From Streptomyces sp. NBC_01298 (GTDB taxonomy: Bacteria > Actinomycetota > Actinomycetes > Streptomycetales > Streptomycetaceae), in NCBI RefSeq assembly GCF_035978755.1, contig NZ_CP108415.1, forward strand, positions 1 through 64,000: a stretch of DNA of 64,000 nt. Reading direction: 5' to 3'. Both the position numbers and the translations under genes were made by a program. Shown piece by piece: positions 1-26,411 of this stretch. The notes under the pieces were generated by a model. It made no database searches. It saw only the letters and a list, made by a program, of their open reading frames with translations, and was not told the origin of the DNA. The stretch's first letter is position 1. The number at the start of each line of letters is the position of its first letter.

Positions 1-189
1 TGGGCGAGGGATGTAGGCCTCGTGCAGGCGCCCCTGCAGTTCCCGAAAGGCGATCAGCGAGCGGACTTTCCAGGTCTCGAGTACGGGCCCCACGAGTTCT
101 CGCGGAGGGACGGCCAGGATCAGCTTGCAGTACTTCCCGGGGACAACGGGTGGGCCCCAGCGAAAGTGCGACGCGACAGCTAGTCTTGG
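1..189 (-). CDS. Possible partial CDS, unidentified
   Basis: The minus strand is open from the repeat junction to the window edge. The frame containing WGPPVVPGK and later ETWKVRSLIAF has G/C-biased third positions and reads like a real globular protein, unlike the lower-GC3 alternative frame. No start or stop is inside the window, so it is an interior fragment, cut at 189/190 where the inverted repeat begins. I do not recognise the family. This is the only sequence in the first 15 kb that is not part of the repeat or its loop. Confidence 0.35.
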
Positions 190-1030
190 GCTGGCCGAGG
201 CCAGCCCGCGTGTCCTCTTCCAGGAGTTCACCTCAGCCGAGGAGGCGGCAGCCGGCGCGGACTGGATGTGGTGGTGGGTGGACCGGGACGGCACCTGCTT
301 CGGCCTCCTCGCCCAAGCGAAGATCCTCAAAGTGCGCGGCCGCCGGTGGACTGTCGACTTCGGGTACACGACAAAGGGGCACTCCCAAGCCCAGATCACC
401 AAGCTCATCGAGGCGGCCGAGCCGTACTCCGTGCCCGCGGCCTACGTCCTGTACTGCGGGGACCGGAAGTACAGGGCGACTATGGAGTGCGTCCGTACTC
501 ACCGCGGTGTGCCGTGCCGGGACCGTGAGCGGGCCGGGGTGTCAGTGGCGTGCGCCCTGGTGGCCCAGGAGGCCACGAAGTCTCACCAGAACGCTGCTGG
601 TGTGGAGGTCTTCCACGACGCGGTACCGCTGGAGGACATTGCGAACCCCGTCGAAGGGCTGGACGAGCCGGTCCACCCGTTGACACGCGAGCTGGACGAG
701 GAACTTGCACGGTTCCTCCGGCAGCCGCAGAGGGGGGCCCGCCGTGTGGCCAAGGAGCTACTGCGCCCACTGGAGCGGATCAGGCTCGGCCAGTTCACCA
801 GCGCAGCCACCCTGGAACGTTCGGCGTCGACCGCCGGCTCCCTCTTCCGGGACGTTCCCGCCGACCGCGGCCACTTCTCAGTGCCGTACCTCGACCACGT
901 ACTGCGCGGCCTGCGTACCGGTGTCCCCGACTACGTGCGCGACGTCATGGAGGGACGTACCTCTTCAGTCGGGATGGCCAACGCACTGGGGGGAATCGTG
1001 GTGATCACCGACGCGGATGCCCTCGGATAG
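190..1030 (+). pseudogene. 5'-truncated copy of DUF6615-like gene
   Basis: This is the left-arm copy of the gene at 14177-15151. Identity starts at LAEASPRV, about codon 48 of the intact protein. The upstream codons (a frame open from 125) come from foreign sequence, so the original N-terminus and ribosome binding site are missing. The E...D...QAK core (around ADWMWWW and LLAQAKIL) is kept, so a product started from a fortuitous codon could retain the domain. Most likely it is a dead remnant made by the repeat junction. Confidence 0.8.
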
Positions 1031-1134
1031 CGAGCGACGGATCGTACGGACGGTCCCGGCCGCACGATCCGTCGCCGATGTTGAACCCCCAGAGCCTGCC
1101 CGTCAGACGTCTCAGCCGGCCTGGTGGGCCGCGT

Positions 1135-1179
1135 CCCGCCCAGCGGGCCGCCGGACGATGTTGTTGCCCGCCCGGCGGG
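1135..1179. promoter_or_regulatory. Pair of CCCG-N5-CGGG palindromes
   Basis: Two copies of the 13-bp palindrome CCCG-N5-CGGG lie at 1135-1147 and 1167-1179, 32 bp apart, about 107 bp upstream of the gene starting at 1286. The same motif recurs singly or paired in other intergenic regions (23.4, 35.5, 53.8, 58.0 kb). The mirror copy lies at 14028-14072. A shared DNA-binding regulator is inferred, but short GC palindromes also arise by chance in this base composition. Confidence 0.4.
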
Positions 1180-1285
1180 AGAGCGCACGGCGAGGAGGCC
1201 AGATCGGGCAGCCCGGGGCTGGCACCGGCCTAGTCTCGGCTGGCTGCCCCGATGGACGGGCGCACCGGGAAAGGGAGCCGCCACC

Positions 1286-1984
1286 ATGACCGACCAGCCG
1301 GCTGAAGCGACCAGTACGGGCCCGGACCCCACCCGCCTGACGCTACGGGTCGAGCACACCGCCCCGCTCATCGACGTTCCTGGGCTGGACCTCTGGCAGG
1401 TACAGATACAGGCTGACGGGGACCCCGTAGGGAGCCTGCGAGCCGTCCGCGGACTGTACGCGGGCGCCCGGCGGGACGAGACCGACTATGAGTGGGGCGA
1501 GACCTGCTCCGTCATGGAGGGCATGCCCTCCATCGACCTGGCGGCAGCGTCCGAGCAGGACTGGCTCCCCGAGGAGGACAAGCAGCTGGCTGAGCTTCGC
1601 TCCCGGCTGTCCGCTTGGGGAGGGTCCTGTGCCGTGGTGGCCGAGCAGCTGCTGAGCGATGAAGTAGTGGGGCTGAGGGAATTCGGGTCCCTCAACGTGC
1701 TCGTCTTCGACCAGTTCTTCCTGTCGGCACCCTGGAATGATCCCGTCACCGCGGCTTGCGCGATCTCTGCGGTGGCCGGCCGGGCGGCCGGTGGTGACTT
1801 CCTGCTGGTCTTCCCCGCAGGGACGGCCACGGGAGGAGCCGATGCCGCCCTCCTGGAAGAGGCGGGACGCCTGCTGTGGGCGGAGCAGTACTCCGACGAC
1901 CTGTACTGCCTCGACCTCAAATTCGACCATGGAGAGGGCCTCGCAGAGGCCTGGGAACTACTCCTCTCCCGGGTCCCAAGCTGA
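1286..1984 (+). CDS. Hypothetical protein, 232 aa (left copy)
   Basis: The ATG at 1286 is chosen because AAGGGAG stands 10 bases upstream and the protein is acidic and well ordered from there. Upstream in-frame codons are Arg/Pro-rich and look non-coding. The product has no signal peptide or membrane segment, and the central part is rich in short hydrophobic stretches such as NVLVFDQFFL. I do not recognise a family. A TAGTCT-like -10 hexamer lies about 50 bp upstream. An identical copy is at 13223-13921. Confidence 0.75.
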   Translation: MTDQPAEATSTGPDPTRLTLRVEHTAPLIDVPGLDLWQVQIQADGDPVGSLRAVRGLYAGARRDETDYEWGETCSVMEGMPSIDLAAASEQDWLPEEDKQLAELRSRLSAWGGSCAVVAEQLLSDEVVGLREFGSLNVLVFDQFFLSAPWNDPVTAACAISAVAGRAAGGDFLLVFPAGTATGGADAALLEEAGRLLWAEQYSDDLYCLDLKFDHGEGLAEAWELLLSRVPS

Positions 1985-2143
1985 ATGCCGCGCTCGGCCG
2001 GAGCGGTCACCGCAGGACGTTGCCACCATCTGGCGCGCCCGGACAACGATCGCTCGATCGAGATGGTGCCCGCCCAGGCCCCACCTCGCCCCATGAACCC
2101 GCTCCAGACACCGCAGGGCTCGACGTAGCCACCCGAAGGGAAA

Positions 2144-2620
2144 ATGGCCTCTGTGACCGAATCCAGCTCCGATGACGCCAGTAGCTCGTCGCCGGCCAGG
2201 GGCGCGCACCCGATTCACTCATGGCAATCCGACGAGATCGATAGCCTCAACAGCCCTGTGGGCGTCGTGGGGACCCTGCTGTCAGCCTTCGTCTTCGCCT
2301 GCCTCTTCACGTACACCCTGGCGCACTACCGATCCTGGGACGGCATAGCAGCGTTTGTACTGTCCGTGCTTCTGGCGCTCCTGGGGGCCCTTGCCGTAGT
2401 CCCCTACAGCCTGACGAACAGCGCAGGGCGGGCGGGACTGGGACAACGCATCTTCATGTGGGGAGGTGGCGCGGTTCTCGCAGGCCTCGAGCTGTCCGCT
2501 GCGGTACTCGGTGATGCGACCTTCTCCATGGCGGCGCTGATCGGGATGGTCGCTGCCCTTGTGATCCCCAGCTTCGGGGAAATCCTGGCTATCGGGGCGG
2601 CTGCCGAAGAGTCCTACTAG
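2144..2620 (+). CDS. Small integral membrane protein, 158 aa (left copy)
   Basis: A hydrophilic Ser/Asp-rich N-terminus of about 40 residues precedes four hydrophobic stretches: VGTLLSAFVFACLF, IAAFVLSVLLALLGAL, the segment around GGGAVLAGLEL, and MAALIGMVAALVI. A four-helix membrane protein is expected, with both ends probably cytoplasmic. A GAAGGGAAA ribosome binding site precedes the ATG. It lies between two unknown soluble-protein genes in the same direction. No family is recognised; an identical copy is at 12587-13063. Confidence 0.75.
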   Translation: MASVTESSSDDASSSSPARGAHPIHSWQSDEIDSLNSPVGVVGTLLSAFVFACLFTYTLAHYRSWDGIAAFVLSVLLALLGALAVVPYSLTNSAGRAGLGQRIFMWGGGAVLAGLELSAAVLGDATFSMAALIGMVAALVIPSFGEILAIGAAAEESY

Positions 2621-2675
2621 AGATTGTCCGGCCGAACACGGGGGTGGGGCCCGGTCGGTCGGGCATCATGCGGCG

Positions 2676-3110
2676 GTGAGCATCATCGTGAAGTTCTTCG
2701 TGGCACCGGACGATGCGGCCGCTGCCCGCGTTGTTGGGGGCGGACCGGGGCTCGCATTCGAGTCTGTCTCGTTTGGCAACTTCGATTCCGAAGGTGCTGC
2801 GGTGGAGTGGGAGTGCCTCTTCTTCGGAGACGACTTCGAGGAGCTCCTGGAAGGCGGCGAGCCGCGTATTGTCGCTGGTGAGGACGATGACGGATGCATC
2901 GTCTTCGCGCTCTCCGCTCGTCTGGTGGATGCTCTGGCCGAGGCGGAACCGTTCCGGCTGCTTGAGGTCGCCGCGGAGTGGACCAGACAGCGGGCCGAAG
3001 ACGGCGAAGAGATCAACCCTGATGTGGCCGCCGAGGTGCTGGGAAGCCTGGGCACTCTGGCCCGTGGGGTAGGAGCACATGGCCACGGCGTGTACTGCTG
3101 GGTCGCGTAG
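2676..3110 (+). CDS. Hypothetical acidic protein, 144 aa (left copy)
   Basis: This is an acidic soluble protein starting MSIIVKFFVAPDDAAA, with a Glu/Asp-rich middle and an alpha-helical C-terminal half. The GTG start has no good ribosome binding site, but CATCAT lies 6 bases upstream at 2664-2669, as in leaderless Streptomyces transcripts. The layout (short beta start, then a DDFEELLEGG segment) recalls small DUF1877-like plasmid proteins, but I cannot assign it. An identical copy is at 12097-12531. Confidence 0.65.
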   Translation: MSIIVKFFVAPDDAAAARVVGGGPGLAFESVSFGNFDSEGAAVEWECLFFGDDFEELLEGGEPRIVAGEDDDGCIVFALSARLVDALAEAEPFRLLEVAAEWTRQRAEDGEEINPDVAAEVLGSLGTLARGVGAHGHGVYCWVA

Positions 3111-3207
3111 GGGTCAGGTTCGGAGCCCAGCCGGACAGTCTCCAGGCCGAACGAGGCGGTCTCCAGCATCATCAGTGACTCCAACGGCCAGAAACCAGCG
3201 CCCAGTT

Positions 3208-3243
3208 ATTGCGATCATCGCAATCTGTTGCGATGATCGCAAC
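3208..3243 (+). promoter_or_regulatory. Leaderless promoter under twin 17-bp palindromic operators
   Basis: Two perfect 17-bp palindromes, ATTGCGATCATCGCAAT (3208-3224) and GTTGCGATGATCGCAAC (3227-3243), are 19 bp apart. Within them TTGCGA (3209-3214) and GATGAT (3232-3237) are separated by 17 bp as -35 and -10 hexamers. The expected start point falls on the ATG at 3244, so the transcript would be leaderless. A protein bound here would cover the promoter, so autorepression by the downstream HTH protein or GntR regulator is likely. Mirror copy at 11964-11999. Confidence 0.8.
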
Positions 3244-3654
3244 ATGCATCCGATCGTTGAACTCGCCGCCCTAATCCACCCGATGCCCGAACCGGGCACC
3301 CCCGACCCGGACGACATCCTCGCCGACGTGCGCGAGGACGTGCACCGCCTGCGCAGGGAGTACGCCGACGACCTCGAAGCCACCGCCTTCGGCAGCGACA
3401 CCGACCCGCTGATCGCGGCCCTGCAGAAGGAGCAGGGGGCCAAGGAGGCGGCGGACCGGCGCATCCGCACCCTCCTGGCCTACGCCCGCGAGTTCCACCC
3501 CCCGCGCCGTTACTCGCTCCACGAGCTCGGCGAAGCCTCCGGCTACACCTTCTCCGGCGTACGCACCGCCTACGGCGACCCCGAAATCACCCTCGTTCAG
3601 GGCCAGATCGGCCGCACCCCGCGGCGCGCCGCCGAGGAGCAGGAGTCGCCGTGA
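3244..3654 (+). CDS. HTH DNA-binding protein, 136 aa (left copy)
   Basis: The N-terminal half is acidic and alpha-helical (DDILADVREDVHRLRREYADDL). Residues about 90-118 (YSLHELGEASGYTFSGVRTAY) look like a helix-turn-helix of the kind found in small actinobacterial plasmid regulators. The start is the ATG immediately after the second palindromic operator, so translation is probably leaderless. Its TGA overlaps the GTG of the downstream GntR gene by 4 bp, which implies translational coupling. It is the best candidate to bind the TTGCGATNATCGCAA sites. An identical copy is at 11553-11963. Confidence 0.75.
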   Translation: MHPIVELAALIHPMPEPGTPDPDDILADVREDVHRLRREYADDLEATAFGSDTDPLIAALQKEQGAKEAADRRIRTLLAYAREFHPPRRYSLHELGEASGYTFSGVRTAYGDPEITLVQGQIGRTPRRAAEEQESP

Positions 3655-4082
3655 CCGTCCAGCCGGCGCGCAACGCCCCGCCGCAGGCCCCGACAGCGCA
3701 TCACCTCGCGCGCCATCCCTCTCTGCCCCCCTACCTGGAGACGGCCGCCGACCTCCGCCAGCAGATCCACTCCGGCCACCTCCCGCCCGGCCACCTGCTG
3801 CCTCCCCTCCGCGTCATGGCCGAGCACTACAAGATCGCCATCGCGACCACGCGGTCCGCCCTGCGGGTCCTCCAAGACGAAGGCCTGGTATACACCAGGC
3901 AGGGCCGCGGATCGTTCGTCGCAGAGCCCCCGTACTCCGTGACGCCTACCGGAATCCCGCCCACCTGCGAATGCGCGCGGCTGGAGCGACGCCTCGACGA
4001 ACTCACCGCCGCTCTCCGAGACCTGCTGCAGCCGCCGCCTCAGAGCCGGCTCGGCCGAATGACAGCAGCTCAGAGCGGGTGA
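3651..4082 (+). CDS. GntR-family transcriptional regulator, 143 aa (left copy)
   Basis: Residues about 28-85 form a GntR-type winged helix: LETAADLRQQIHSGHLPPG, then a recognition-helix region (TTRSALRVLQDEGLVYTRQG) and the wing (RGSFVAEPP). There is no large effector domain; a short tail with CEC and a leucine-rich helix follows, so this is a minimal GntR protein of the size common on Streptomyces plasmids. The GTG start overlaps the preceding stop, so it is the second gene of a two-regulator operon behind twin operators. An identical copy is at 11125-11556. Confidence 0.85.
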   Translation: MTVQPARNAPPQAPTAHHLARHPSLPPYLETAADLRQQIHSGHLPPGHLLPPLRVMAEHYKIAIATTRSALRVLQDEGLVYTRQGRGSFVAEPPYSVTPTGIPPTCECARLERRLDELTAALRDLLQPPPQSRLGRMTAAQSG

Positions 4083-4219
4083 CCGTCAACAACGGCGTGC
4101 GCGCACCTCCACCGGAACCGACGCTCTGCGCGAGCCGGACAGACCCGGCCTGCCGCACGCACTGCCGGACCACGCGGCATGACCACTACGCTCCGAACCG
4201 CAAGGGAGGGACACCACCG

Positions 4220-4690
4220 ATGCTCAAGGCACTCCGCGACGTCACCGTCCGTATGTCCGGCCGAATCCCCGAACAGGACATCGACCTGCGCACCCTGTAC
4301 CGCCTGCGCATGCCCAACGGCAACTACAACCCCGGCCGGATCCTGGAAACCCACCGCCTCTGGGAACGCCGCTGGAACGACGCCACCCCCTTCGTCTCCG
4401 CCGAGACCAAGCCCTCCCGCACCGAACACCGCGTCGTCGGCCTCCTCGCGGTGGCCGACCACACCGTCGGCGCAGGCAGCCCCGAACACCTCGAAGCCCT
4501 GCGCCAGGTACCCCTGCTCGTCCTCGTCGACGACCCGGACCAGGCGCGCCAGGCCTTGATGTCCTTCCAAGAGGAGATGTCCCGCCTCGGCCCGGAAGAG
4601 CGGGTCGGCGGCCTCGTCTTACAGTCCCGCACCTTCATGCGGAACATCACCGTCGCCGACCCCCACCGCATCCGCCCGCTCACCGTCTGA
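4220..4690 (+). CDS. Hypothetical protein, 156 aa (left copy)
   Basis: The ATG at 4220 has AAGGGAGGG 9 bases upstream; in-frame upstream codons overlap the GntR gene and are rejected. The protein begins with a basic helix (MLKALRDVTVRMSGRI) followed by RTLYRLRMPNGNYNPGRIL and a C-terminal alpha/beta part with PLLVLVDDPDQARQAL. It is soluble. It is followed 26 bp later by another unknown gene and probably shares its transcript. I do not recognise a family. An identical copy is at 10517-10987. Confidence 0.75.
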   Translation: MLKALRDVTVRMSGRIPEQDIDLRTLYRLRMPNGNYNPGRILETHRLWERRWNDATPFVSAETKPSRTEHRVVGLLAVADHTVGAGSPEHLEALRQVPLLVLVDDPDQARQALMSFQEEMSRLGPEERVGGLVLQSRTFMRNITVADPHRIRPLTV

Positions 4691-4716
4691 CGAGCCGGTA
4701 GAAAGGACCGTCCTCC

Positions 4717-5277
4717 ATGACCTCCACCAGGGATGACCACAAGGCCGCGATCGAGGCCGCCAAACAGCGGATCCCGTCGCTGGAGCAGCTGTTCCTGGGC
4801 TGGCCGACGACCCGCCCCCAGATGCCCAACGCGGCCCACGCCGAAGCCGAACTGTACGAGACCAGCGGCTTCGACGACCCCAGGCTGGTGCTCTACACCG
4901 GGATCAGCCGCCTACCCCACCTGACCGTGGGCTGGGCGCTGTTCGGGTCCACCCGCAACGTCCACCCCGGCCACCCCTCCCTCCCGCACGCACTCCGGGA
5001 GGCACTGACGGATCCCGACGCCGCGCGCGCCCTGCAGTTCATGGCCGCGGACCACCAGGAGACCGACGAGGCCGCCACTGAGACACTCTCCGACCCCCGG
5101 ACCGTCCGTACACTCGCCGGCCTCGCCTCGACCGCACACCTGGACCACCAGGGGCAGCCACTACGAGTCGACGTCGGCACGCAGATCTACGCGTACCACC
5201 CAGGCCCCCTCCGCCTGGGCTCCACCACCACCGACCTCGTGTGCATCGGCAGCCCGATCTGGATCGCCGGAGCCTGA
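4717..5277 (+). CDS. Hypothetical protein, 186 aa (left copy)
   Basis: The start ATG is preceded by AGAAAGGA. The product is a soluble mixed alpha/beta protein with two conserved-looking blocks, LVLYTGISRLPHLTVGWALFG and VGTQIYAYHPGPLRLG. No catalytic motif stands out. It lies 26 bp downstream of the previous gene in the same direction and converges with the gene ending at 5374. The function is unknown. An identical copy is at 9930-10490. Confidence 0.75.
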   Translation: MTSTRDDHKAAIEAAKQRIPSLEQLFLGWPTTRPQMPNAAHAEAELYETSGFDDPRLVLYTGISRLPHLTVGWALFGSTRNVHPGHPSLPHALREALTDPDAARALQFMAADHQETDEAATETLSDPRTVRTLAGLASTAHLDHQGQPLRVDVGTQIYAYHPGPLRLGSTTTDLVCIGSPIWIAGA

Positions 5278-5373
5278 CAGCAAAGACGGCCGAGCGCCGA
5301 ACCGGTCCACCCAGTTCCGACAAGGGGCACCAGGCGCGCCGCGTGCGGTAGCGGCCTACGCCCACGGGGCCCG

Positions 5374-6039
5374 TCAGCGACGGGACTCCGCAGCAGCCTT
5401 GCGCCTGGCCTCGACCTCGGGCGGAAGCGGGAGAACCGGCACGTCGGCCGGGTTGCTCGGACCCTCGTCATGAACACCATCGGGTCCGGCGACTGCCGAC
5501 CAACGACTGACCTCGCGGGCCTGGTGCGCGGAGACTTCCCACAGGGAGTGGCCCACTCCCATCGTGTCCGCAGCGCCCATGTCGAACCAGTTGATCCGCA
5601 TGTACCCGCCGTACAGGGCCAGCGCCGTCGCCATCCACTCCACCGCCCGCGGGTCGACGTCGGCGGCCCACCCGTCGCAGTGGGGGTGCGTCTTGTACTC
5701 GAAGTAGCCGAAGCCCTCCTGCCGGGCGAAGGCCGGGAGAGGGCCGGACGCTGGCAGCCGGCCGCGGCCGTCGCTCGACAGATACATCTCGCGCGCCGCG
5801 CACCCGGGATCGTCGCAGGACACCTCGGTGTCGGACAGCCGCAGCCACAGTGCCACGGTCACGTCCTGTCCATTCTCGGTGGGTGCCGACCACAGCCGCT
5901 GACGGCACTGCGACGCCTCGTGATCGCGCAACCGCCACTGCTCGGGGTGGTCATGCGACAGGCGGTGGAGGTAGTGGCCGACCAGGCGCCACGCCTCCTC
6001 GGCCGACGGAGTGATCGCGTGGGCGGTCTCGGCGCTCAT
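5374..6039 (-). CDS. Hypothetical protein, 221 aa (left copy)
   Basis: This soluble protein carries CRQRLWSAP, CDDPGCAAREMYL and a CDGWAADVD segment, which could form a small metal site. The rest is alpha/beta. The ATG has no ribosome binding site, but TACACT ends 7 bases upstream, so the mRNA is probably leaderless. Two TTGC/GCAA palindromes lie 87-126 bp upstream. The antisense frame of this region is long and open but has poor codon bias and is rejected. An identical copy is at 9168-9833. Confidence 0.75.
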   Translation of the reverse strand: MSAETAHAITPSAEEAWRLVGHYLHRLSHDHPEQWRLRDHEASQCRQRLWSAPTENGQDVTVALWLRLSDTEVSCDDPGCAAREMYLSSDGRGRLPASGPLPAFARQEGFGYFEYKTHPHCDGWAADVDPRAVEWMATALALYGGYMRINWFDMGAADTMGVGHSLWEVSAHQAREVSRWSAVAGPDGVHDEGPSNPADVPVLPLPPEVEARRKAAAESRR

Positions 6040-6125
6040 GCGCCGGAGTGTAGAGCCGGGGGAGAGACCTCAGTTACGCGAACGCCGAGATTCAACCCGA
6101 GGAGTGGATCAGCCGAGCCGGAGAC

Positions 6126-6165
6126 TTGCGCTGAGCACAACGGGCAGGACCTGCACTCAGCGCAA
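6126..6165 (-). promoter_or_regulatory. Two TTGCRCT-type palindromic operators
   Basis: TTGCGCTGAGCACAA (6126-6140) and CTGCACTCAGCGCAA (6151-6165) are near-palindromes of the form TTGCRCT-N-AGYGCAA, 25 bp apart. They stand upstream of the gene starting at 6039 and are mirrored at 9042-9081. They match the TTGC-N7-GCAA pattern of the operators at 3208-3243 and 6862-6937. A repressor or activator site is inferred from symmetry and position only. Confidence 0.6.
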
Positions 6166-6218
6166 CCCACTCACAGGCCTTGTTCGAGTACGCCGGCAGA
6201 CGCACTTCCACACACGCA

Positions 6219-6249
6219 CCCCGGGGCCGGTAGAGGGCCGGGCCCGGGG
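6219..6249 (-). terminator. GC-rich hairpin after the 88-aa gene
   Basis: CCCCGGGGCCGG pairs with CCGGGCCCGGGG (11 of 12 bp) across a 7-base loop, about 30 bp beyond the stop of the gene 6280-6546. It has no U-tract, as is usual for actinobacterial terminators. The mirror copy is at 8958-8988. Confidence 0.5.
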
Positions 6250-6279
6250 AGCGCGGCGGCCCATGGGGATAGGCGCTGG

Positions 6280-6546
6280 CTACGGAATCTCGTTCAGCAC
6301 CCGAGCCGCCAGCTCAGCCTCGCCCTCGGCCAGGACAAGGCTTCCGTCCTCGTCTTCGGTCCATTCCCAGCCGTCGCCGAGGTCGGAGAGGTCCCCGGAC
6401 CAGACGAGTTCGTACTCGCCTTCCTGGAGGAACACATCGTGAACGATGGCGAGGCTTCCGTCCGGCTCGCGGGCCAGGACGAAGCGGCCTCCCTGCTCCA
6501 GAACGGCGCTGACGTGGGCGGTGGTGACAGTCTCATGGGTCGTCAT
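6280..6546 (-). CDS. Hypothetical acidic protein, 88 aa (left copy)
   Basis: The start is set at the ATG preceded by GGAGGACAT, a strong ribosome binding site; upstream in-frame codons are not protein-like. The protein is very acidic (GDGWEWTEDEDGSLVLAEGE) and probably a small beta-sandwich with tandem LxxGxxxxVW-like strands. The 396-bp region upstream contains three palindromic operators but no gene. The function is unknown. An identical copy is at 8661-8927. Confidence 0.7.
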   Translation of the reverse strand: MTTHETVTTAHVSAVLEQGGRFVLAREPDGSLAIVHDVFLQEGEYELVWSGDLSDLGDGWEWTEDEDGSLVLAEGEAELAARVLNEIP

Positions 6547-6942
6547 ATGTCCTCCAGTGACAGAACAGGGCCTACCAAGGCAGGCGGTATCGACGTGGCT
6601 GCGATGGCAGCAGACATCCCCGGGCGGGGGCACGCGATTCCCGTACGTGCGGGAGGACGGAGGGCATGGGCGCGATCAAGTCCGGACCGCGTGCCCTCCT
6701 GCACGACGAGCGTATGACTCCGCAAGTGTGGGCCTGCGAAGCCACGCCGGAACGCGCCGCGAGCCCCTGCACGGATCGAACTCAGGTCGGCGCTCAAGCC
6801 CTGGCACAGTCCAAGTAGCGGGCGCCCGCCCTACGAGGAGCGACGAAGAATCCGGGCCGCCTTGCACTGAGCGCAAACCCATCCGGATTGCACGAGGTGC
6901 AATCCGGCGCAGTACAGCCGACTTGCATCTCGTGCAACACCT
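6547..6942. promoter_or_regulatory. Intergenic region with three TTGC-N7-GCAA palindromes
   Basis: No convincing gene is present. Three 15-bp palindromes are clustered: TTGCACTGAGCGCAA (6862-6876), TTGCACGAGGTGCAA (6888-6902) and TTGCATCTCGTGCAA (6923-6937). They start 26 and 35 bp apart and lie just past the stop of the helicase-associated fragment. An array for a DNA-binding protein is likely (operator cluster or partition-like site). It is mirrored at 8265-8660, so the 1.5 kb around the repeat centre carries six sites. Confidence 0.6.
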
Positions 6943-7584
6943 TCACCCGGTGGCGTCCCCGCGCTGCGCCAGCTCATCGACCGCCCAGCCGAGCCCCCAC
7001 CCCGCGTAAGCCTCAAGCGCCTCCTGCTCCAGTCCAGCTCGCCGTTCACGTGCCTTGTTCAAGCGCGCCAGGAGCCGTACCTCCACGCCGTCGACGGTGA
7101 CGGTCCAGTCGGCCCGCACCGCATGCCGTCCACGCGCATCGACGAGAGGACCCACCTCCCCGACGTACTGTCGCGCAGCCTCTACAACGGCCTGCGCCCT
7201 TTCCCCCCGCGGCCGCCTCACCACAGCTGCCCCCGAGGGCTTCGCGGGCACCACGACTCCGCGTTTGGCCAGCGCAAGCACCTGCTGCTCATCCAACTGC
7301 CCCCCGCGCCGCAGCTGGCTATCCAGCCACGCCCCGAGGTCCTCACCGCCGTACGCGCGACTACCCGCCATCAGTTCCTCGACCGACCCGCCGTCGGCGA
7401 CATACAGGTCCAGCAGCACCAGGTGCCGCTGCCACGCGGCATCCCACGGCCCCTGAACCCGCCACGGCACCCCCAGCCCATCGAGCTCGGCCTCAAGGCG
7501 CGCGCCGGGCCGCCGCGCCTCGGTCATCAGCCGGCCGACAGCCACCTCCTGCCCGTCGACCTCGAACGTCTCGGCCTGCCGGGG
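6943..7584 (-). pseudogene. Helicase-associated (HA) domain gene fragment, left copy
   Basis: About 214 codons of repeated HA-like units (for example LGAWLDSQLRRGGQLDEQQ and VRLLARLNKARERRAGLEQE) run to a stop at 6943. Such repeats form the C-terminal part of large helicases encoded near ends of Streptomyces linear replicons (TtrA-like proteins are one example). The 5' part is lost at the loop; a GTG at 7608 inside the loop opens a short fortuitous leader. The helicase core is absent, so this copy is a broken remnant. Confidence 0.75.
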
Positions 7585-7622
7585 AGCTGGTCGCCTACGC
7601 GCACGCACGCAGGCACCTACTC
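7585..7622. repeat. 38-bp loop at the centre of the giant inverted repeat
   Basis: These 38 bases are not repeated and separate the two arms. Read on the plus strand they continue the right-arm HA frame as LVAYAHARRHLLPRQ, which looks like native protein, so the loop probably belongs to the right arm. Inside it GGT-C-GCCT (from 7589) and AGGCACC (7611-7617) can pair, giving a small hairpin that could have primed fold-back synthesis. Confidence 0.85.
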
Positions 7623-8264
7623 CCCCGGCAGGCCGAGACGTTCGAGGTCGACGGGCAGGAGGTGGCTGTCGGCCGGCTGATGACCGAGGCGCGGCGGCCC
7701 GGCGCGCGCCTTGAGGCCGAGCTCGATGGGCTGGGGGTGCCGTGGCGGGTTCAGGGGCCGTGGGATGCCGCGTGGCAGCGGCACCTGGTGCTGCTGGACC
7801 TGTATGTCGCCGACGGCGGGTCGGTCGAGGAACTGATGGCGGGTAGTCGCGCGTACGGCGGTGAGGACCTCGGGGCGTGGCTGGATAGCCAGCTGCGGCG
7901 CGGGGGGCAGTTGGATGAGCAGCAGGTGCTTGCGCTGGCCAAACGCGGAGTCGTGGTGCCCGCGAAGCCCTCGGGGGCAGCTGTGGTGAGGCGGCCGCGG
8001 GGGGAAAGGGCGCAGGCCGTTGTAGAGGCTGCGCGACAGTACGTCGGGGAGGTGGGTCCTCTCGTCGATGCGCGTGGACGGCATGCGGTGCGGGCCGACT
8101 GGACCGTCACCGTCGACGGCGTGGAGGTACGGCTCCTGGCGCGCTTGAACAAGGCACGTGAACGGCGAGCTGGACTGGAGCAGGAGGCGCTTGAGGCTTA
8201 CGCGGGGTGGGGGCTCGGCTGGGCGGTCGATGAGCTGGCGCAGCGCGGGGACGCCACCGGGTGA
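7590..8264 (+). pseudogene. Helicase-associated (HA) domain gene fragment, right copy
   Basis: This is the mirror copy of 6943-7584, extended by the loop codons, which fit the protein better than those on the left. The first plausible internal start is the GTG at 7662, giving 200 residues of HA-type repeats only. Upstream of the loop the sequence becomes the reverse complement of itself, so the true N-terminal part is gone from both sides. It is interpreted as the original, right-hand fragment. Confidence 0.75.
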
Positions 8265-8269
8265 AGGTG

Positions 8270-8345
8270 TTGCACGAGATGCAAGTCGGCTGTACTGCGC
8301 CGGATTGCACCTCGTGCAATCCGGATGGGTTTGCGCTCAGTGCAA
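8270..8345. promoter_or_regulatory. Right-arm cluster of three TTGC-N7-GCAA palindromes
   Basis: Mirror of the left cluster: TTGCACGAGATGCAA (8270-8284), TTGCACCTCGTGCAA (8305-8319) and TTGCGCTCAGTGCAA (8331-8345). They lie in the 396-bp gap between the HA fragment stop and the 88-aa gene at 8661; I see no gene in that gap. Confidence 0.6.
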
Positions 8346-8660
8346 GGCGGCCCGGATTCTTCGTCGCTCCTCGTAGGGCGGGCGCCCGCTACTTGGACTG
8401 TGCCAGGGCTTGAGCGCCGACCTGAGTTCGATCCGTGCAGGGGCTCGCGGCGCGTTCCGGCGTGGCTTCGCAGGCCCACACTTGCGGAGTCATACGCTCG
8501 TCGTGCAGGAGGGCACGCGGTCCGGACTTGATCGCGCCCATGCCCTCCGTCCTCCCGCACGTACGGGAATCGCGTGCCCCCGCCCGGGGATGTCTGCTGC
8601 CATCGCAGCCACGTCGATACCGCCTGCCTTGGTAGGCCCTGTTCTGTCACTGGAGGACAT

Positions 8661-8927
8661 ATGACGACCCATGAGACTGTCACCACCGCCCACGTCAGCG
8701 CCGTTCTGGAGCAGGGAGGCCGCTTCGTCCTGGCCCGCGAGCCGGACGGAAGCCTCGCCATCGTTCACGATGTGTTCCTCCAGGAAGGCGAGTACGAACT
8801 CGTCTGGTCCGGGGACCTCTCCGACCTCGGCGACGGCTGGGAATGGACCGAAGACGAGGACGGAAGCCTTGTCCTGGCCGAGGGCGAGGCTGAGCTGGCG
8901 GCTCGGGTGCTGAACGAGATTCCGTAG
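8661..8927 (+). CDS. Hypothetical acidic protein, 88 aa (right copy)
   Basis: Identical to 6280-6546. The GGAGGACAT ribosome binding site is visible at 8652-8660 directly before the ATG. Confidence 0.7.
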   Translation: MTTHETVTTAHVSAVLEQGGRFVLAREPDGSLAIVHDVFLQEGEYELVWSGDLSDLGDGWEWTEDEDGSLVLAEGEAELAARVLNEIP

Positions 8928-8957
8928 CCAGCGCCTATCCCCATGGGCCGCCGCGCT

Positions 8958-8988
8958 CCCCGGGCCCGGCCCTCTACCGGCCCCGGGG
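8958..8988 (+). terminator. GC-rich hairpin (right copy)
   Basis: Mirror of the hairpin at 6219-6249, about 30 bp after the 88-aa gene. Confidence 0.5.
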
Positions 8989-9041
8989 TGCGTGTGTGGA
9001 AGTGCGTCTGCCGGCGTACTCGAACAAGGCCTGTGAGTGGG

Positions 9042-9081
9042 TTGCGCTGAGTGCAGGTCCTGCCCGTTGTGCTCAGCGCAA
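9042..9081 (+). promoter_or_regulatory. Two TTGCRCT-type palindromes (right copy)
   Basis: Mirror of 6126-6165, upstream of the gene starting at 9168. The leaderless -10 TACACT is at 9155-9160, 7 bases before that ATG. Confidence 0.6.
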
Positions 9082-9167
9082 GTCTCCGGCTCGGCTGATC
9101 CACTCCTCGGGTTGAATCTCGGCGTTCGCGTAACTGAGGTCTCTCCCCCGGCTCTACACTCCGGCGC

Positions 9168-9833
9168 ATGAGCGCCGAGACCGCCCACGCGATCACTCCG
9201 TCGGCCGAGGAGGCGTGGCGCCTGGTCGGCCACTACCTCCACCGCCTGTCGCATGACCACCCCGAGCAGTGGCGGTTGCGCGATCACGAGGCGTCGCAGT
9301 GCCGTCAGCGGCTGTGGTCGGCACCCACCGAGAATGGACAGGACGTGACCGTGGCACTGTGGCTGCGGCTGTCCGACACCGAGGTGTCCTGCGACGATCC
9401 CGGGTGCGCGGCGCGCGAGATGTATCTGTCGAGCGACGGCCGCGGCCGGCTGCCAGCGTCCGGCCCTCTCCCGGCCTTCGCCCGGCAGGAGGGCTTCGGC
9501 TACTTCGAGTACAAGACGCACCCCCACTGCGACGGGTGGGCCGCCGACGTCGACCCGCGGGCGGTGGAGTGGATGGCGACGGCGCTGGCCCTGTACGGCG
9601 GGTACATGCGGATCAACTGGTTCGACATGGGCGCTGCGGACACGATGGGAGTGGGCCACTCCCTGTGGGAAGTCTCCGCGCACCAGGCCCGCGAGGTCAG
9701 TCGTTGGTCGGCAGTCGCCGGACCCGATGGTGTTCATGACGAGGGTCCGAGCAACCCGGCCGACGTGCCGGTTCTCCCGCTTCCGCCCGAGGTCGAGGCC
9801 AGGCGCAAGGCTGCTGCGGAGTCCCGTCGCTGA
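9168..9833 (+). CDS. Hypothetical protein, 221 aa (right copy)
   Basis: Identical to 5374-6039. It converges with the 186-aa gene ending at 9930. Confidence 0.75.
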   Translation: MSAETAHAITPSAEEAWRLVGHYLHRLSHDHPEQWRLRDHEASQCRQRLWSAPTENGQDVTVALWLRLSDTEVSCDDPGCAAREMYLSSDGRGRLPASGPLPAFARQEGFGYFEYKTHPHCDGWAADVDPRAVEWMATALALYGGYMRINWFDMGAADTMGVGHSLWEVSAHQAREVSRWSAVAGPDGVHDEGPSNPADVPVLPLPPEVEARRKAAAESRR

Positions 9834-9929
9834 CGGGCCCCGTGGGCGTAGGCCGCTACCGCACGCGGCGCGCCTGGTGCCCCTTGTCGGAACTGGGTGG
9901 ACCGGTTCGGCGCTCGGCCGTCTTTGCTG

Positions 9930-10490
9930 TCAGGCTCCGGCGATCCAGATCGGGCTGCCGATGCACACGAGGTCGGTGGTGGTGGAGCCCAGGCGGAGGG
10001 GGCCTGGGTGGTACGCGTAGATCTGCGTGCCGACGTCGACTCGTAGTGGCTGCCCCTGGTGGTCCAGGTGTGCGGTCGAGGCGAGGCCGGCGAGTGTACG
10101 GACGGTCCGGGGGTCGGAGAGTGTCTCAGTGGCGGCCTCGTCGGTCTCCTGGTGGTCCGCGGCCATGAACTGCAGGGCGCGCGCGGCGTCGGGATCCGTC
10201 AGTGCCTCCCGGAGTGCGTGCGGGAGGGAGGGGTGGCCGGGGTGGACGTTGCGGGTGGACCCGAACAGCGCCCAGCCCACGGTCAGGTGGGGTAGGCGGC
10301 TGATCCCGGTGTAGAGCACCAGCCTGGGGTCGTCGAAGCCGCTGGTCTCGTACAGTTCGGCTTCGGCGTGGGCCGCGTTGGGCATCTGGGGGCGGGTCGT
10401 CGGCCAGCCCAGGAACAGCTGCTCCAGCGACGGGATCCGCTGTTTGGCGGCCTCGATCGCGGCCTTGTGGTCATCCCTGGTGGAGGTCAT
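9930..10490 (-). CDS. Hypothetical protein, 186 aa (right copy)
   Basis: Identical to 4717-5277. It is the last gene of the presumed two-gene unit starting at 10987. Confidence 0.75.
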   Translation of the reverse strand: MTSTRDDHKAAIEAAKQRIPSLEQLFLGWPTTRPQMPNAAHAEAELYETSGFDDPRLVLYTGISRLPHLTVGWALFGSTRNVHPGHPSLPHALREALTDPDAARALQFMAADHQETDEAATETLSDPRTVRTLAGLASTAHLDHQGQPLRVDVGTQIYAYHPGPLRLGSTTTDLVCIGSPIWIAGA

Positions 10491-10516
10491 GGAGGACGGT
10501 CCTTTCTACCGGCTCG

Positions 10517-10987
10517 TCAGACGGTGAGCGGGCGGATGCGGTGGGGGTCGGCGACGGTGATGTTCCGCATGAAGGTGCGGGACTGTAAGACGAGGCCGCC
10601 GACCCGCTCTTCCGGGCCGAGGCGGGACATCTCCTCTTGGAAGGACATCAAGGCCTGGCGCGCCTGGTCCGGGTCGTCGACGAGGACGAGCAGGGGTACC
10701 TGGCGCAGGGCTTCGAGGTGTTCGGGGCTGCCTGCGCCGACGGTGTGGTCGGCCACCGCGAGGAGGCCGACGACGCGGTGTTCGGTGCGGGAGGGCTTGG
10801 TCTCGGCGGAGACGAAGGGGGTGGCGTCGTTCCAGCGGCGTTCCCAGAGGCGGTGGGTTTCCAGGATCCGGCCGGGGTTGTAGTTGCCGTTGGGCATGCG
10901 CAGGCGGTACAGGGTGCGCAGGTCGATGTCCTGTTCGGGGATTCGGCCGGACATACGGACGGTGACGTCGCGGAGTGCCTTGAGCAT
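10517..10987 (-). CDS. Hypothetical protein, 156 aa (right copy)
   Basis: Identical to 4220-4690, with the same AAGGGAGGG ribosome binding site upstream. Confidence 0.75.
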   Translation of the reverse strand: MLKALRDVTVRMSGRIPEQDIDLRTLYRLRMPNGNYNPGRILETHRLWERRWNDATPFVSAETKPSRTEHRVVGLLAVADHTVGAGSPEHLEALRQVPLLVLVDDPDQARQALMSFQEEMSRLGPEERVGGLVLQSRTFMRNITVADPHRIRPLTV

Positions 10988-11124
10988 CGGTGGTGTCCCT
11001 CCCTTGCGGTTCGGAGCGTAGTGGTCATGCCGCGTGGTCCGGCAGTGCGTGCGGCAGGCCGGGTCTGTCCGGCTCGCGCAGAGCGTCGGTTCCGGTGGAG
11101 GTGCGCGCACGCCGTTGTTGACGG

Positions 11125-11556
11125 TCACCCGCTCTGAGCTGCTGTCATTCGGCCGAGCCGGCTCTGAGGCGGCGGCTGCAGCAGGTCTCGGAGAGCGGCG
11201 GTGAGTTCGTCGAGGCGTCGCTCCAGCCGCGCGCATTCGCAGGTGGGCGGGATTCCGGTAGGCGTCACGGAGTACGGGGGCTCTGCGACGAACGATCCGC
11301 GGCCCTGCCTGGTGTATACCAGGCCTTCGTCTTGGAGGACCCGCAGGGCGGACCGCGTGGTCGCGATGGCGATCTTGTAGTGCTCGGCCATGACGCGGAG
11401 GGGAGGCAGCAGGTGGCCGGGCGGGAGGTGGCCGGAGTGGATCTGCTGGCGGAGGTCGGCGGCCGTCTCCAGGTAGGGGGGCAGAGAGGGATGGCGCGCG
11501 AGGTGATGCGCTGTCGGGGCCTGCGGCGGGGCGTTGCGCGCCGGCTGGACGGTCAC
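11125..11556 (-). CDS. GntR-family transcriptional regulator, 143 aa (right copy)
   Basis: Identical to 3651-4082. Its GTG overlaps the stop of the HTH gene by 4 bp. Confidence 0.85.
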   Translation of the reverse strand: MTVQPARNAPPQAPTAHHLARHPSLPPYLETAADLRQQIHSGHLPPGHLLPPLRVMAEHYKIAIATTRSALRVLQDEGLVYTRQGRGSFVAEPPYSVTPTGIPPTCECARLERRLDELTAALRDLLQPPPQSRLGRMTAAQSG

Positions 11557-11963
11557 GGCGACTCCTGCTCCTCGGCGGCGCGCCGCGGGGTGCGGCCGAT
11601 CTGGCCCTGAACGAGGGTGATTTCGGGGTCGCCGTAGGCGGTGCGTACGCCGGAGAAGGTGTAGCCGGAGGCTTCGCCGAGCTCGTGGAGCGAGTAACGG
11701 CGCGGGGGGTGGAACTCGCGGGCGTAGGCCAGGAGGGTGCGGATGCGCCGGTCCGCCGCCTCCTTGGCCCCCTGCTCCTTCTGCAGGGCCGCGATCAGCG
11801 GGTCGGTGTCGCTGCCGAAGGCGGTGGCTTCGAGGTCGTCGGCGTACTCCCTGCGCAGGCGGTGCACGTCCTCGCGCACGTCGGCGAGGATGTCGTCCGG
11901 GTCGGGGGTGCCCGGTTCGGGCATCGGGTGGATTAGGGCGGCGAGTTCAACGATCGGATGCAT
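11553..11963 (-). CDS. HTH DNA-binding protein, 136 aa (right copy)
   Basis: Identical to 3244-3654, leaderless, directly after the palindromic operator pair. Confidence 0.75.
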   Translation of the reverse strand: MHPIVELAALIHPMPEPGTPDPDDILADVREDVHRLRREYADDLEATAFGSDTDPLIAALQKEQGAKEAADRRIRTLLAYAREFHPPRRYSLHELGEASGYTFSGVRTAYGDPEITLVQGQIGRTPRRAAEEQESP

Positions 11964-11999
11964 GTTGCGATCATCGCAACAGATTGCGATGATCGCAAT
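11964..11999 (-). promoter_or_regulatory. Leaderless promoter with twin palindromes (right copy)
   Basis: Mirror of 3208-3243, with the same -35 TTGCGA, 17-bp spacer and -10 GATGAT on the minus strand. Confidence 0.8.
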
Positions 12000-12096
12000 A
12001 ACTGGGCGCTGGTTTCTGGCCGTTGGAGTCACTGATGATGCTGGAGACCGCCTCGTTCGGCCTGGAGACTGTCCGGCTGGGCTCCGAACCTGACCC

Positions 12097-12531
12097 CTAC
12101 GCGACCCAGCAGTACACGCCGTGGCCATGTGCTCCTACCCCACGGGCCAGAGTGCCCAGGCTTCCCAGCACCTCGGCGGCCACATCAGGGTTGATCTCTT
12201 CGCCGTCTTCGGCCCGCTGTCTGGTCCACTCCGCGGCGACCTCAAGCAGCCGGAACGGTTCCGCCTCGGCCAGAGCATCCACCAGACGAGCGGAGAGCGC
12301 GAAGACGATGCATCCGTCATCGTCCTCACCAGCGACAATACGCGGCTCGCCGCCTTCCAGGAGCTCCTCGAAGTCGTCTCCGAAGAAGAGGCACTCCCAC
12401 TCCACCGCAGCACCTTCGGAATCGAAGTTGCCAAACGAGACAGACTCGAATGCGAGCCCCGGTCCGCCCCCAACAACGCGGGCAGCGGCCGCATCGTCCG
12501 GTGCCACGAAGAACTTCACGATGATGCTCAC
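12097..12531 (-). CDS. Hypothetical acidic protein, 144 aa (right copy)
   Basis: Identical to 2676-3110. Confidence 0.65.
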   Translation of the reverse strand: MSIIVKFFVAPDDAAAARVVGGGPGLAFESVSFGNFDSEGAAVEWECLFFGDDFEELLEGGEPRIVAGEDDDGCIVFALSARLVDALAEAEPFRLLEVAAEWTRQRAEDGEEINPDVAAEVLGSLGTLARGVGAHGHGVYCWVA

Positions 12532-12586
12532 CGCCGCATGATGCCCGACCGACCGGGCCCCACCCCCGTGTTCGGCCGGACAATCT

Positions 12587-13063
12587 CTAGTAGGACTCTT
12601 CGGCAGCCGCCCCGATAGCCAGGATTTCCCCGAAGCTGGGGATCACAAGGGCAGCGACCATCCCGATCAGCGCCGCCATGGAGAAGGTCGCATCACCGAG
12701 TACCGCAGCGGACAGCTCGAGGCCTGCGAGAACCGCGCCACCTCCCCACATGAAGATGCGTTGTCCCAGTCCCGCCCGCCCTGCGCTGTTCGTCAGGCTG
12801 TAGGGGACTACGGCAAGGGCCCCCAGGAGCGCCAGAAGCACGGACAGTACAAACGCTGCTATGCCGTCCCAGGATCGGTAGTGCGCCAGGGTGTACGTGA
12901 AGAGGCAGGCGAAGACGAAGGCTGACAGCAGGGTCCCCACGACGCCCACAGGGCTGTTGAGGCTATCGATCTCGTCGGATTGCCATGAGTGAATCGGGTG
13001 CGCGCCCCTGGCCGGCGACGAGCTACTGGCGTCATCGGAGCTGGATTCGGTCACAGAGGCCAT
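12587..13063 (-). CDS. Small integral membrane protein, 158 aa (right copy)
   Basis: Identical to 2144-2620, with four predicted membrane helices. Confidence 0.75.
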   Translation of the reverse strand: MASVTESSSDDASSSSPARGAHPIHSWQSDEIDSLNSPVGVVGTLLSAFVFACLFTYTLAHYRSWDGIAAFVLSVLLALLGALAVVPYSLTNSAGRAGLGQRIFMWGGGAVLAGLELSAAVLGDATFSMAALIGMVAALVIPSFGEILAIGAAAEESY

Positions 13064-13222
13064 TTTCCCTTCGGGTGGCTACGTCGAGCCCTGCGGTGTC
13101 TGGAGCGGGTTCATGGGGCGAGGTGGGGCCTGGGCGGGCACCATCTCGATCGAGCGATCGTTGTCCGGGCGCGCCAGATGGTGGCAACGTCCTGCGGTGA
13201 CCGCTCCGGCCGAGCGCGGCAT

Positions 13223-13921
13223 TCAGCTTGGGACCCGGGAGAGGAGTAGTTCCCAGGCCTCTGCGAGGCCCTCTCCATGGTCGAATTTGAGGTCGAGGCA
13301 GTACAGGTCGTCGGAGTACTGCTCCGCCCACAGCAGGCGTCCCGCCTCTTCCAGGAGGGCGGCATCGGCTCCTCCCGTGGCCGTCCCTGCGGGGAAGACC
13401 AGCAGGAAGTCACCACCGGCCGCCCGGCCGGCCACCGCAGAGATCGCGCAAGCCGCGGTGACGGGATCATTCCAGGGTGCCGACAGGAAGAACTGGTCGA
13501 AGACGAGCACGTTGAGGGACCCGAATTCCCTCAGCCCCACTACTTCATCGCTCAGCAGCTGCTCGGCCACCACGGCACAGGACCCTCCCCAAGCGGACAG
13601 CCGGGAGCGAAGCTCAGCCAGCTGCTTGTCCTCCTCGGGGAGCCAGTCCTGCTCGGACGCTGCCGCCAGGTCGATGGAGGGCATGCCCTCCATGACGGAG
13701 CAGGTCTCGCCCCACTCATAGTCGGTCTCGTCCCGCCGGGCGCCCGCGTACAGTCCGCGGACGGCTCGCAGGCTCCCTACGGGGTCCCCGTCAGCCTGTA
13801 TCTGTACCTGCCAGAGGTCCAGCCCAGGAACGTCGATGAGCGGGGCGGTGTGCTCGACCCGTAGCGTCAGGCGGGTGGGGTCCGGGCCCGTACTGGTCGC
13901 TTCAGCCGGCTGGTCGGTCAT
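13223..13921 (-). CDS. Hypothetical protein, 232 aa (right copy)
   Basis: Identical to 1286-1984. Here it follows the intact 325-aa gene (14177-15151) in the same direction, which is probably the native arrangement. Confidence 0.75.
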   Translation of the reverse strand: MTDQPAEATSTGPDPTRLTLRVEHTAPLIDVPGLDLWQVQIQADGDPVGSLRAVRGLYAGARRDETDYEWGETCSVMEGMPSIDLAAASEQDWLPEEDKQLAELRSRLSAWGGSCAVVAEQLLSDEVVGLREFGSLNVLVFDQFFLSAPWNDPVTAACAISAVAGRAAGGDFLLVFPAGTATGGADAALLEEAGRLLWAEQYSDDLYCLDLKFDHGEGLAEAWELLLSRVPS

Positions 13922-14176
13922 GGTGGCGGCTCCCTTTCCCGGTGCGCCCGTCCATCGGGGCAGCCAGCCGAGACTAGGCCGGTGCCAGCCCCGGGCTGCC
14001 CGATCTGGCCTCCTCGCCGTGCGCTCTCCCGCCGGGCGGGCAACAACATCGTCCGGCGGCCCGCTGGGCGGGACGCGGCCCACCAGGCCGGCTGAGACGT
14101 CTGACGGGCAGGCTCTGGGGGTTCAACATCGGCGACGGATCGTGCGGCCGGGACCGTCCGTACGATCCGTCGCTCG

Positions 14177-15151
14177 CTATCCGAGGGCATCCGCGTCGGT
14201 GATCACCACGATTCCCCCCAGTGCGTTGGCCATCCCGACTGAAGAGGTACGTCCCTCCATGACGTCGCGCACGTAGTCGGGGACACCGGTACGCAGGCCG
14301 CGCAGTACGTGGTCGAGGTACGGCACTGAGAAGTGGCCGCGGTCGGCGGGAACGTCCCGGAAGAGGGAGCCGGCGGTCGACGCCGAACGTTCCAGGGTGG
14401 CTGCGCTGGTGAACTGGCCGAGCCTGATCCGCTCCAGTGGGCGCAGTAGCTCCTTGGCCACACGGCGGGCCCCCCTCTGCGGCTGCCGGAGGAACCGTGC
14501 AAGTTCCTCGTCCAGCTCGCGTGTCAACGGGTGGACCGGCTCGTCCAGCCCTTCGACGGGGTTCGCAATGTCCTCCAGCGGTACCGCGTCGTGGAAGACC
14601 TCCACACCAGCAGCGTTCTGGTGAGACTTCGTGGCCTCCTGGGCCACCAGGGCGCACGCCACTGACACCCCGGCCCGCTCACGGTCCCGGCACGGCACAC
14701 CGCGGTGAGTACGGACGCACTCCATAGTCGCCCTGTACTTCCGGTCCCCGCAGTACAGGACGTAGGCCGCGGGCACGGAGTACGGCTCGGCCGCCTCGAT
14801 GAGCTTGGTGATCTGGGCTTGGGAGTGCCCCTTTGTCGTGTACCCGAAGTCGACAGTCCACCGGCGGCCGCGCACTTTGAGGATCTTCGCTTGGGCGAGG
14901 AGGCCGAAGCAGGTGCCGTCCCGGTCCACCCACCACCACATCCAGTCCGCGCCGGCTGCCGCCTCCTCGGCTGAGGTGAACTCCTGGAAGAGGACACGCG
15001 GGCTGGCCTCGGCCAGCAAGACCTGTGTCGCGGTCACTTCGCGCAAGGTCCCACCGTTGTCCCCCAGGAGTGCGGACAAACGGTCCACGGCCGTCCGGCC
15101 CCTCCGCAGAGCCTCGTAGGGGCCCGTACCAAGGTCAGAGAATCCGCTCAT
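14177..15151 (-). CDS. DUF6615-like, possible PD-(D/E)XK nuclease-fold protein
   Basis: This is the intact copy. ADWMWWWVDRDG followed by GLLAQAKIL resembles the E/D...QAK core of DUF6615-type proteins, which I read as a restriction-endonuclease-like fold (acidic residues in EEAAAGADW, then QAK). A conserved-looking KYRATMECVRTHRGVPC segment and a helical C-terminal half follow. The ATG at 15151 has GAAAGG just upstream; a GTG two codons earlier is possible. It may lead a unit with the 232-aa gene. The family name is from memory of the motif and unchecked; nuclease activity is inference. Confidence 0.65.
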   Translation of the reverse strand: MSGFSDLGTGPYEALRRGRTAVDRLSALLGDNGGTLREVTATQVLLAEASPRVLFQEFTSAEEAAAGADWMWWWVDRDGTCFGLLAQAKILKVRGRRWTVDFGYTTKGHSQAQITKLIEAAEPYSVPAAYVLYCGDRKYRATMECVRTHRGVPCRDRERAGVSVACALVAQEATKSHQNAAGVEVFHDAVPLEDIANPVEGLDEPVHPLTRELDEELARFLRQPQRGARRVAKELLRPLERIRLGQFTSAATLERSASTAGSLFRDVPADRGHFSVPYLDHVLRGLRTGVPDYVRDVMEGRTSSVGMANALGGIVVITDADALG

Positions 15152-15442
15152 GATCACCTTTCGGGGCAGCTGCGGGGCCTGCGAGGCCCCATCCTCATCC
15201 TTACCGGCAGCAGGGGCCCTCTGGCGGCCACCCAGCCCACCGTGGGGTGATCACGGTCAGACAGGCACGTAGTCTGCCGCCGCTGTTCCTCATCCCCCGC
15301 TCTCGCCGGGCTCGGCAACGAGCTGGTCATCGCCGAGCCCCGCCCAGGAGAAGACCAGCAGCCGAGACGTCCAGCTGCGCCGTCGAGATCCAAATAGCCG
15401 CAAAAACCCTCGGGTTGACGGTACGCGGCCTACGATCGCGTC
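15152..15442 (+). promoter_or_regulatory. Divergent intergenic region with leaderless promoter
   Basis: No convincing gene or RiPP precursor was found here on either strand. TACGAT (15431-15436) ends 6 bases before the ATG at 15443, the spacing of a leaderless actinobacterial promoter. A TTGACG at 15415-15420 is only 10 bp upstream of it, too close for a standard -35 element. The minus-strand gene at 15151 starts at the other end. Confidence 0.45.
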
Positions 15443-17504: not shown

Positions 17505-17705
17505 ATGCCACTGGCCGGTTGTCTGCCCGTGCCCGAGGTACCGCTCTGCCCGTTCCCAGCACGGCAGTTGACCGTCGCCAAGCGCCGGATACCAGCTCGC
17601 ATAGGCTTCCGGCCACACCATTCACTCGTTCGGACGTAATCGCCGTAGGGGCGCGGGGGAGCCGGCCGGTGCTGCCAGGCTGGGAAAGAGCCCTGGTGAC
17701 GCAAC

Positions 17706-20546: not shown

Positions 20547-20550
20547 ACCG

Positions 20551-22090: not shown

Positions 22091-22200
22091 GAACGTGGTA
22101 CTCGATGCCGCCAGGCGGCTGCGACAGCGGCCTTCGGGCATCTTGAAAGCGCGAGGCAGCGAGCGTCGCCGCTCTGCGACGGTTCACCCTCGTGTGCCGT

Positions 22201-25196: not shown

Positions 25197-25206
25197 GGCC
25201 GGGAGT

Positions 25207-26405: not shown

Positions 26406-26411
26406 GCCGGT

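Follow-up and report, generated by a model that had tools for sequence, protein, structure and literature searches.

In mutants of Streptomyces griseus attributed to Uchida et al. (2004), the deletions at the two chromosome ends were reportedly of slightly different size. A circularised S. griseus chromosome, with its repeats standing practically head to head, is described in a passage of PMC5345009. In Streptomyces ambofaciens, according to the account in PMC5869714, double-strand breaks are followed by an arm replacement that removes tap/tpg and then by closure between the arm copies, and circularisation after the loss of tap/tpg is also described in PMC8743545. A lost Streptomyces end can moreover be replaced by copying of the other arm, which yields long terminal repeats, such as the new 88-kb repeats of an S. 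avermitilis mutant (described in PMC2920896). Here, the first 64,000 nucleotides of contig C2 (NZ_CP108415.1) of Streptomyces sp. NBC_01298, referred to as the window, were analyzed; within this window two mirrored repeat arms meet inside a truncated gene for a telomere-linked helicase of the TtrA type. We consider it slightly better than an even bet that C2 is a giant plasmid derived from a linear Streptomyces replicon, which has lost its telomeres and was closed tip to tip as a ring. A palindromic ring of a Streptomyces replicon belongs to a known kind, of which a plasmid example would be a new member. C2 comprises 358,856 bp of a genome of 9,695,021 bp in five contigs (the others being the chromosome C1, 9,032,271 bp, C3, 161,412 bp, C4, 107,522 bp, and C5, 34,960 bp), and its first 25 kb match 27 plasmid records, 25 from Streptomyces and two from Streptantibioticus.

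The arms 190-7584 and 7623-15017 form 7395 pairs with 0 mismatches, position i pairing with 15207-i, and leave a spacer of 38 bp (7585-7622); the sequence-only reading had described precisely such indel-free arms and loop. When a mismatch-tolerant repeat finder was used, part of the spacer was bridged and arms of 7413 nt, 2 nt apart, were returned. No further exact 40-mer repeats, direct or inverted, were found in the window. The same reading had set outer borders at 190 and 15017, which were not upheld, given that the repeat continues on both sides. When the reverse complement of bases 1-189 was aligned from 15018 onward, 145 of the 189 bases were identical, with many indels and a score of 105 (best of 200 shuffles, -9); a second scoring against 15018-15203 counted 148 bases as matching and 18 as mismatched, with 23 insertions and 20 deletions. 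From its letters, this segment resembles the end of a contig that was left uncorrected. Open frames cross 1-189, but an origin as a foreign flank was rejected, as the segment aligns to the mirror stretch. The presence of an error-rich mirror copy at the contig start means that the repeat runs past 190 and 15017 and that both outer borders are not biological. The gene at the outer border, which had been thought to be cut by it, is likewise not cut there; instead, sequence errors have corrupted the copy of it at the contig start.

Beyond this point, 15204-75206 (60,003 bases) was found to be the reverse complement of C2:298853-358856 (60,004 bases, reaching the contig end), with 0 mismatches and one gap (one G in a G run) over 60,004 aligned columns, so that everything in the window from 7623 onward is repeat arm. 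The mirror of base 1 (∼15203, with a few bases of doubt from the gapped alignment) adjoins the mirror of base 358,856 (15204). The contig ends thus abut, and the C2 contig closes on itself as a circle, in which 75207-298852 (223,646 bp) is unique, the two arms measure 67,584 and 67,588 bp, and the 38-bp spacer makes up the rest. At the inner repeat border (75206/298853), the DNA is GC-rich with short repeated motifs, e.g., CCGCAGGCATGG (C2:75150-75330, C2:298700-298910). The arm length given earlier was therefore short by about nine-fold (67.6 kb, not 7.4 kb), and the structure is, as far as the assembled sequence tells, a tip-to-tip junction of long terminal repeats. A separate local fold-back of 15 kb was rejected because the repeat runs on through both contig ends. 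Of the two origins offered for that local structure, the loss of an end of a linear replicon and a fold-back in the assembly, both are still leading. Under either origin the repeated genes cover 67.6 kb and there is no local 7.4-kb duplication, so that the warning against counting genes twice holds over the whole arm.

The inner gene is cut at the spacer, as had been proposed. In the right arm, the frame from 7587 passes through 12 spacer codons and then on to 8264. As the reference, the helicase encoded by CDS 833-3655 of the linear plasmid pSSP121038 (NZ_CP030772.1, YIM 121038) was used. The right copy aligns from reference residue 688, with ten codons lying within the spacer, and the left copy aligns only from residue 698, at 7584. 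Since only the right-arm homology extends into the spacer, the spacer is native to one arm, and the two tips were cut unequally, 38 bp apart. Pairwise alignment of the C2 fragment to the full-length pSSP121038 helicase gave 101 identities in 224 positions (45%). When the full-length protein was used as the query, only its C-terminal part was found on C2, and the missing part was without a close match in the five contigs. Other helicases of the genome are more distant, at C1:692711-695224 (39% and 33%) and at the left end of C4 (31% and 29%); a second query gave a similar result for C1 and C4 and no match on C2. The fragment scored 23.3 bits against the Pfam HA profile, below the cut-off of 28.4, and the TtrA-type name therefore rests on the wider alignments.

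Relatives of the helicase piece were collected by tblastn, which matched 83 of 72,556 plasmid records; positions and orientations were taken from 40 listed of these 83. Among these 40, 29 lie ≤10 kb and 23 lie ≤5 kb from a record end, and all 40 point inward from the nearer end. The topology was looked up for the records of two of them, and both are linear. A ttrA that points inward near replicon ends is described in PMC8743542. Within the genus, the piece matched 118 of 199 genomes, its own included. A scan across 84,980 species genomes returned 331 matches to the pattern, of which none was confirmed as a relative. Comparison of the terminal 15.6 kb of pSSP121038 with C2 showed weak synteny, consisting of the helicase piece, a second copy and one weak further match. 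This second, partial copy of the helicase tail lies at 12415-13065 of pSSP121038, 12.4 kb from its end; a native end could accordingly lie ∼2.9 kb or ∼12 kb away from the C2 tip.

To compare the replicon ends, 150-nt end stretches were folded and scored against shuffles; on this measure, the ends that fold are telomere-like at most. The folds exceeded the shuffles at the right end of C1 (z -3.66) and at the left and right ends of C3 (-5.29 and -5.99). Neither the C2 tip (-1.05) nor the mirror of the C2 contig end (-0.30) showed an excess, and no palindrome-rich telomere was seen at either. Tap and Tpg profiles were matched over the cut-off on C3 and C4 only, and on neither C2 nor the chromosome; Tap-Tpg pairs are located at C3:155781-158624 and C4:83062-85797, with a second Tpg gene at C4:92209-92748. 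The unique middle of C2 contains two matches over the cut-off to CbiA/ParA-type ATPases.

The ring is thus suggested by the arm structure, the abutting ends, the unequal tips in the helicase gene and the lack of a Tap/Tpg match on C2, all of which are seen in the assembled sequence. Its ancestor would have been a linear giant plasmid with long terminal inverted repeats, which presumably lost its telomeres and the outer portion of its terminal helicase gene. Subsequently, one broken end may have folded back, or two deleted ends may have been joined, at most 38 bp apart inside the helicase gene, and the telomere-less molecule would have closed as a ring of a 223.6-kb unique middle, two 67.6-kb arms and the 38-bp spacer, a junction that would then exist in the cell. 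As to the order of events, we infer a fold-back at one end and then recombination between the arms, because a single fold-back with arm recombination would account for tips only 38 bp apart, whereas with two independent deletions such closeness would be a matter of chance. According to PMC5345009, a fold-back can be primed on inverted repeats that are as little as 4 bases long and lie 10 to 30 bp away. The spacer flanks, GGGGAG (7581-7586) and CTCCCC (7620-7625), would suit such priming, but the spacer fold is ordinary. Moreover, the clean 7395-bp arm, noise that is not dominated by deletions and a centre inside a gene are three traits in which C2 differs from the fold-back of C4 (see below), which favours many molecules carrying the junction.

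Compared with the S. griseus rings, C2 would share the derivation from a linear Streptomyces replicon, the apparent lack of telomeres, the long repeats placed head to head and a slight difference between the deletions at the two ends, but it is a plasmid, has no parent strain, and its closure is known from the assembly alone. Giant linear Streptomyces plasmids such as SCP1 are similar to C2 in overall size and in their long terminal repeats. No telomere was seen on C2, in contrast to these plasmids, and the likeness is one of general features; SCP1 is given as lacking TtrA in the relevant passage of PMC8743542. The likeness to S. ambofaciens lies in a duplicated arm, closure between two copies of one arm and the loss of tap/tpg, although those events were induced in a chromosome, and here C3 and C4 keep tap/tpg, which may act in trans. 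In Lactobacillus delbrueckii subsp. bulgaricus, a large repeat was similarly proposed, as stated in PMC5345009, to have formed via fold-back priming on a short inverted repeat near a break; its repeats, however, make up the terminus of an originally circular chromosome and have spacers of 1-8.8 kb. Among the matches listed in searches of the open-licence literature, no description of a palindromic-ring Streptomyces plasmid was found, which is no proof of absence. If the ring is real, it would be the plasmid counterpart of the mutant Streptomyces chromosomal rings, with a junction readable to the base in a telomere-linked gene, and the stability of a 135-kb palindrome with a 38-bp spacer becomes a question. 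If it is an artefact, it shows how a false ring without telomeres can be made out of a linear plasmid that carries long terminal repeats.

This artefact is the strongest competitor, and we regard it as a real possibility, if one with less than an even chance: the plasmid would be a linear molecule that keeps its telomeres and ends in repeats of 67.6 kb or more; misled by one or a few fold-back reads near an end, the assembler would have reversed direction, omitted the final few kilobases, matched the left extension to the right end and closed the contig. Several observations weigh against the ring and on this side. Between the start of C2 and the palindrome centre lie 7.6 kb, which is typical of a read length, and a random cut of a ring would land so near the centre with P = 0.042; the first 189 bases of C2 are uncorrected, as is the case for the distal bases in the long-read fold-back artefact described in PMC12870357, where the palindrome also lies near a contig end. 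The telomeres of C2 may have been dropped by the assembler. Missing telomere DNA is not special to C2, as the left end of C4 (C4:1-1990) starts inside another TtrA-type helicase gene, lacks its outermost bases too and shows no fold excess (z 0.01); the left fold of C1 is also weak (z -1.46). Given that C1 is without Tap/Tpg over the cut-off as well, their absence on C2 is no proof of circularity, and the genes of C3 and C4 could act in trans for C2. The fold of the spacer does not exceed that of shuffles (z -0.83). During polishing, one of two identical arms can be corrected by the other, so that the clean arm is no proof of many junction reads. Furthermore, the noisy fold-back of C4 and the dimer of C5 reveal structural faults in the same assembly. 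C5:1-34960 consists of two exact head-to-tail copies of a 17,480-bp unit and is probably a circular plasmid that the assembly contains twice over. At its right end, C4 turns back on itself at a centre near position 10336 of C4:87523-107522, where short stems with 3-nt loops occur, although the fold of the stretch near the centre does not differ significantly from shuffles (z -0.81); this fold-back looks as if it surrounds telomere-like DNA, and much of its outer copy resembles uncorrected reads. Within 4.5 kb of the centre, the two C4 copies are nearly identical; between 4.5 and 9.5 kb their agreement drops to 59-82%, and over the following 500 columns it is complete again. Across the noisy stretch, 556 deletions, 67 insertions and 137 mismatches were counted in the outer copy against 3,561 bases, which fits the missed-base pattern of inverted duplicates in nanopore reads reported in PMC7229812. 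Among the plasmid matches listed, the best identities were 66-67% for the outer copy (20 records) and 83-85% for the inner copy (111 records). Fold-back reads are put at ∼0.55-0.6% of nanopore genomic reads in PMC12870357.

On the other side, C4 is an uneven control: the longest open frame of its noisy stretch is found in the outer copy (420 codons, against 350 in the inner), the outer copy is free of such noise close to the centre, and over the last 1.2 kb of that copy the identity is 96% and the errors are balanced, which opposes a simple artefact story. Unlike a fold-back artefact, C2 has a clean folded arm over 7395 bp, an exact closure of the contig and a centre that lies inside a gene, a few kilobases short of the expected end, and not at a telomere. 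Its 189 noisy bases, with nearly as many insertions as deletions, are not deletion-dominated, and the missing helicase part and a telomere are without a close match in the five contigs. PacBio HiFi data are described in PMC12870357 as virtually free of fold-back reads, which would weigh against the artefact if such reads underlie this assembly. A missed hairpin adapter of the PacBio type is a usual source of mirror contigs, and this, or a pure library palindrome unrelated to the plasmid ends, was weighed as well. Here, however, the spacer is native coding sequence, the longest strings that it shares with two adapter sequences are 3 and 4 bases, and the abutting contig ends are not accounted for, so that we consider this explanation very unlikely. 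If both telomere-less ends of a linear plasmid were covalently closed by fold-back hairpins, it would assemble like a ring and have the same sequence, and hairpin-ended plasmids of Rhizobiaceae are described in PMC13293297. Nevertheless, the telomere-resolvase catalytic family PF16684, the one family tested, had no match in the genome, the tip is an imperfect palindrome with a 38-bp spacer, and replication through hairpins would be expected to yield circles; such ends are thus highly improbable. Equally small is the chance of caps with a 38-nt loop that lack a terminal protein or telomere resolvase of their own, or of an alternation between this form and a ring bearing the 135-kb palindrome. 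The telomere-less ring remains the reading that we prefer, and the features of the window are collected in Table 1.

Table 1. Coordinates of the features in the window (first 64,000 nucleotides of C2).
Feature	Position	Strand	Remark
Truncated TtrA-type telomere-linked helicase, C-terminal part only	7587..8264	+	Reads inward from the tip; start inside the spacer
Mirror helicase fragment	6943..7608	-	Homology to the relative ends at 7584
Left part of palindrome	190..7584		Pairs with 7623-15017 at every base; once the contig is closed, runs on via base 1 into 358856-298853
Spacer	7585..7622		Native continuation of the right-arm helicase gene
Right part of palindrome	7623..15017		Exact pairing with 190-7584
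Contig start, apparently unpolished	1..189		Error-rich copy of the reverse complement of 15018 to ∼15203
Continuation of repeat arm	15204..64000		Reaches C2:75206 beyond the window; mirror copy C2:298853-358856
Outer gene, 326 codons	14177..15157	-	Frame stays open across the supposed border 15017

A scan of 7400-7800 for promoters and terminators found nothing. The outer gene gave a weak match to DUF6615, below the cut-off of this family. Moreover, the repeat-arm gene at 2696-3118 of the window has a relative of 83% identity at C1:71165-71585, ∼71 kb in from the left chromosome end.

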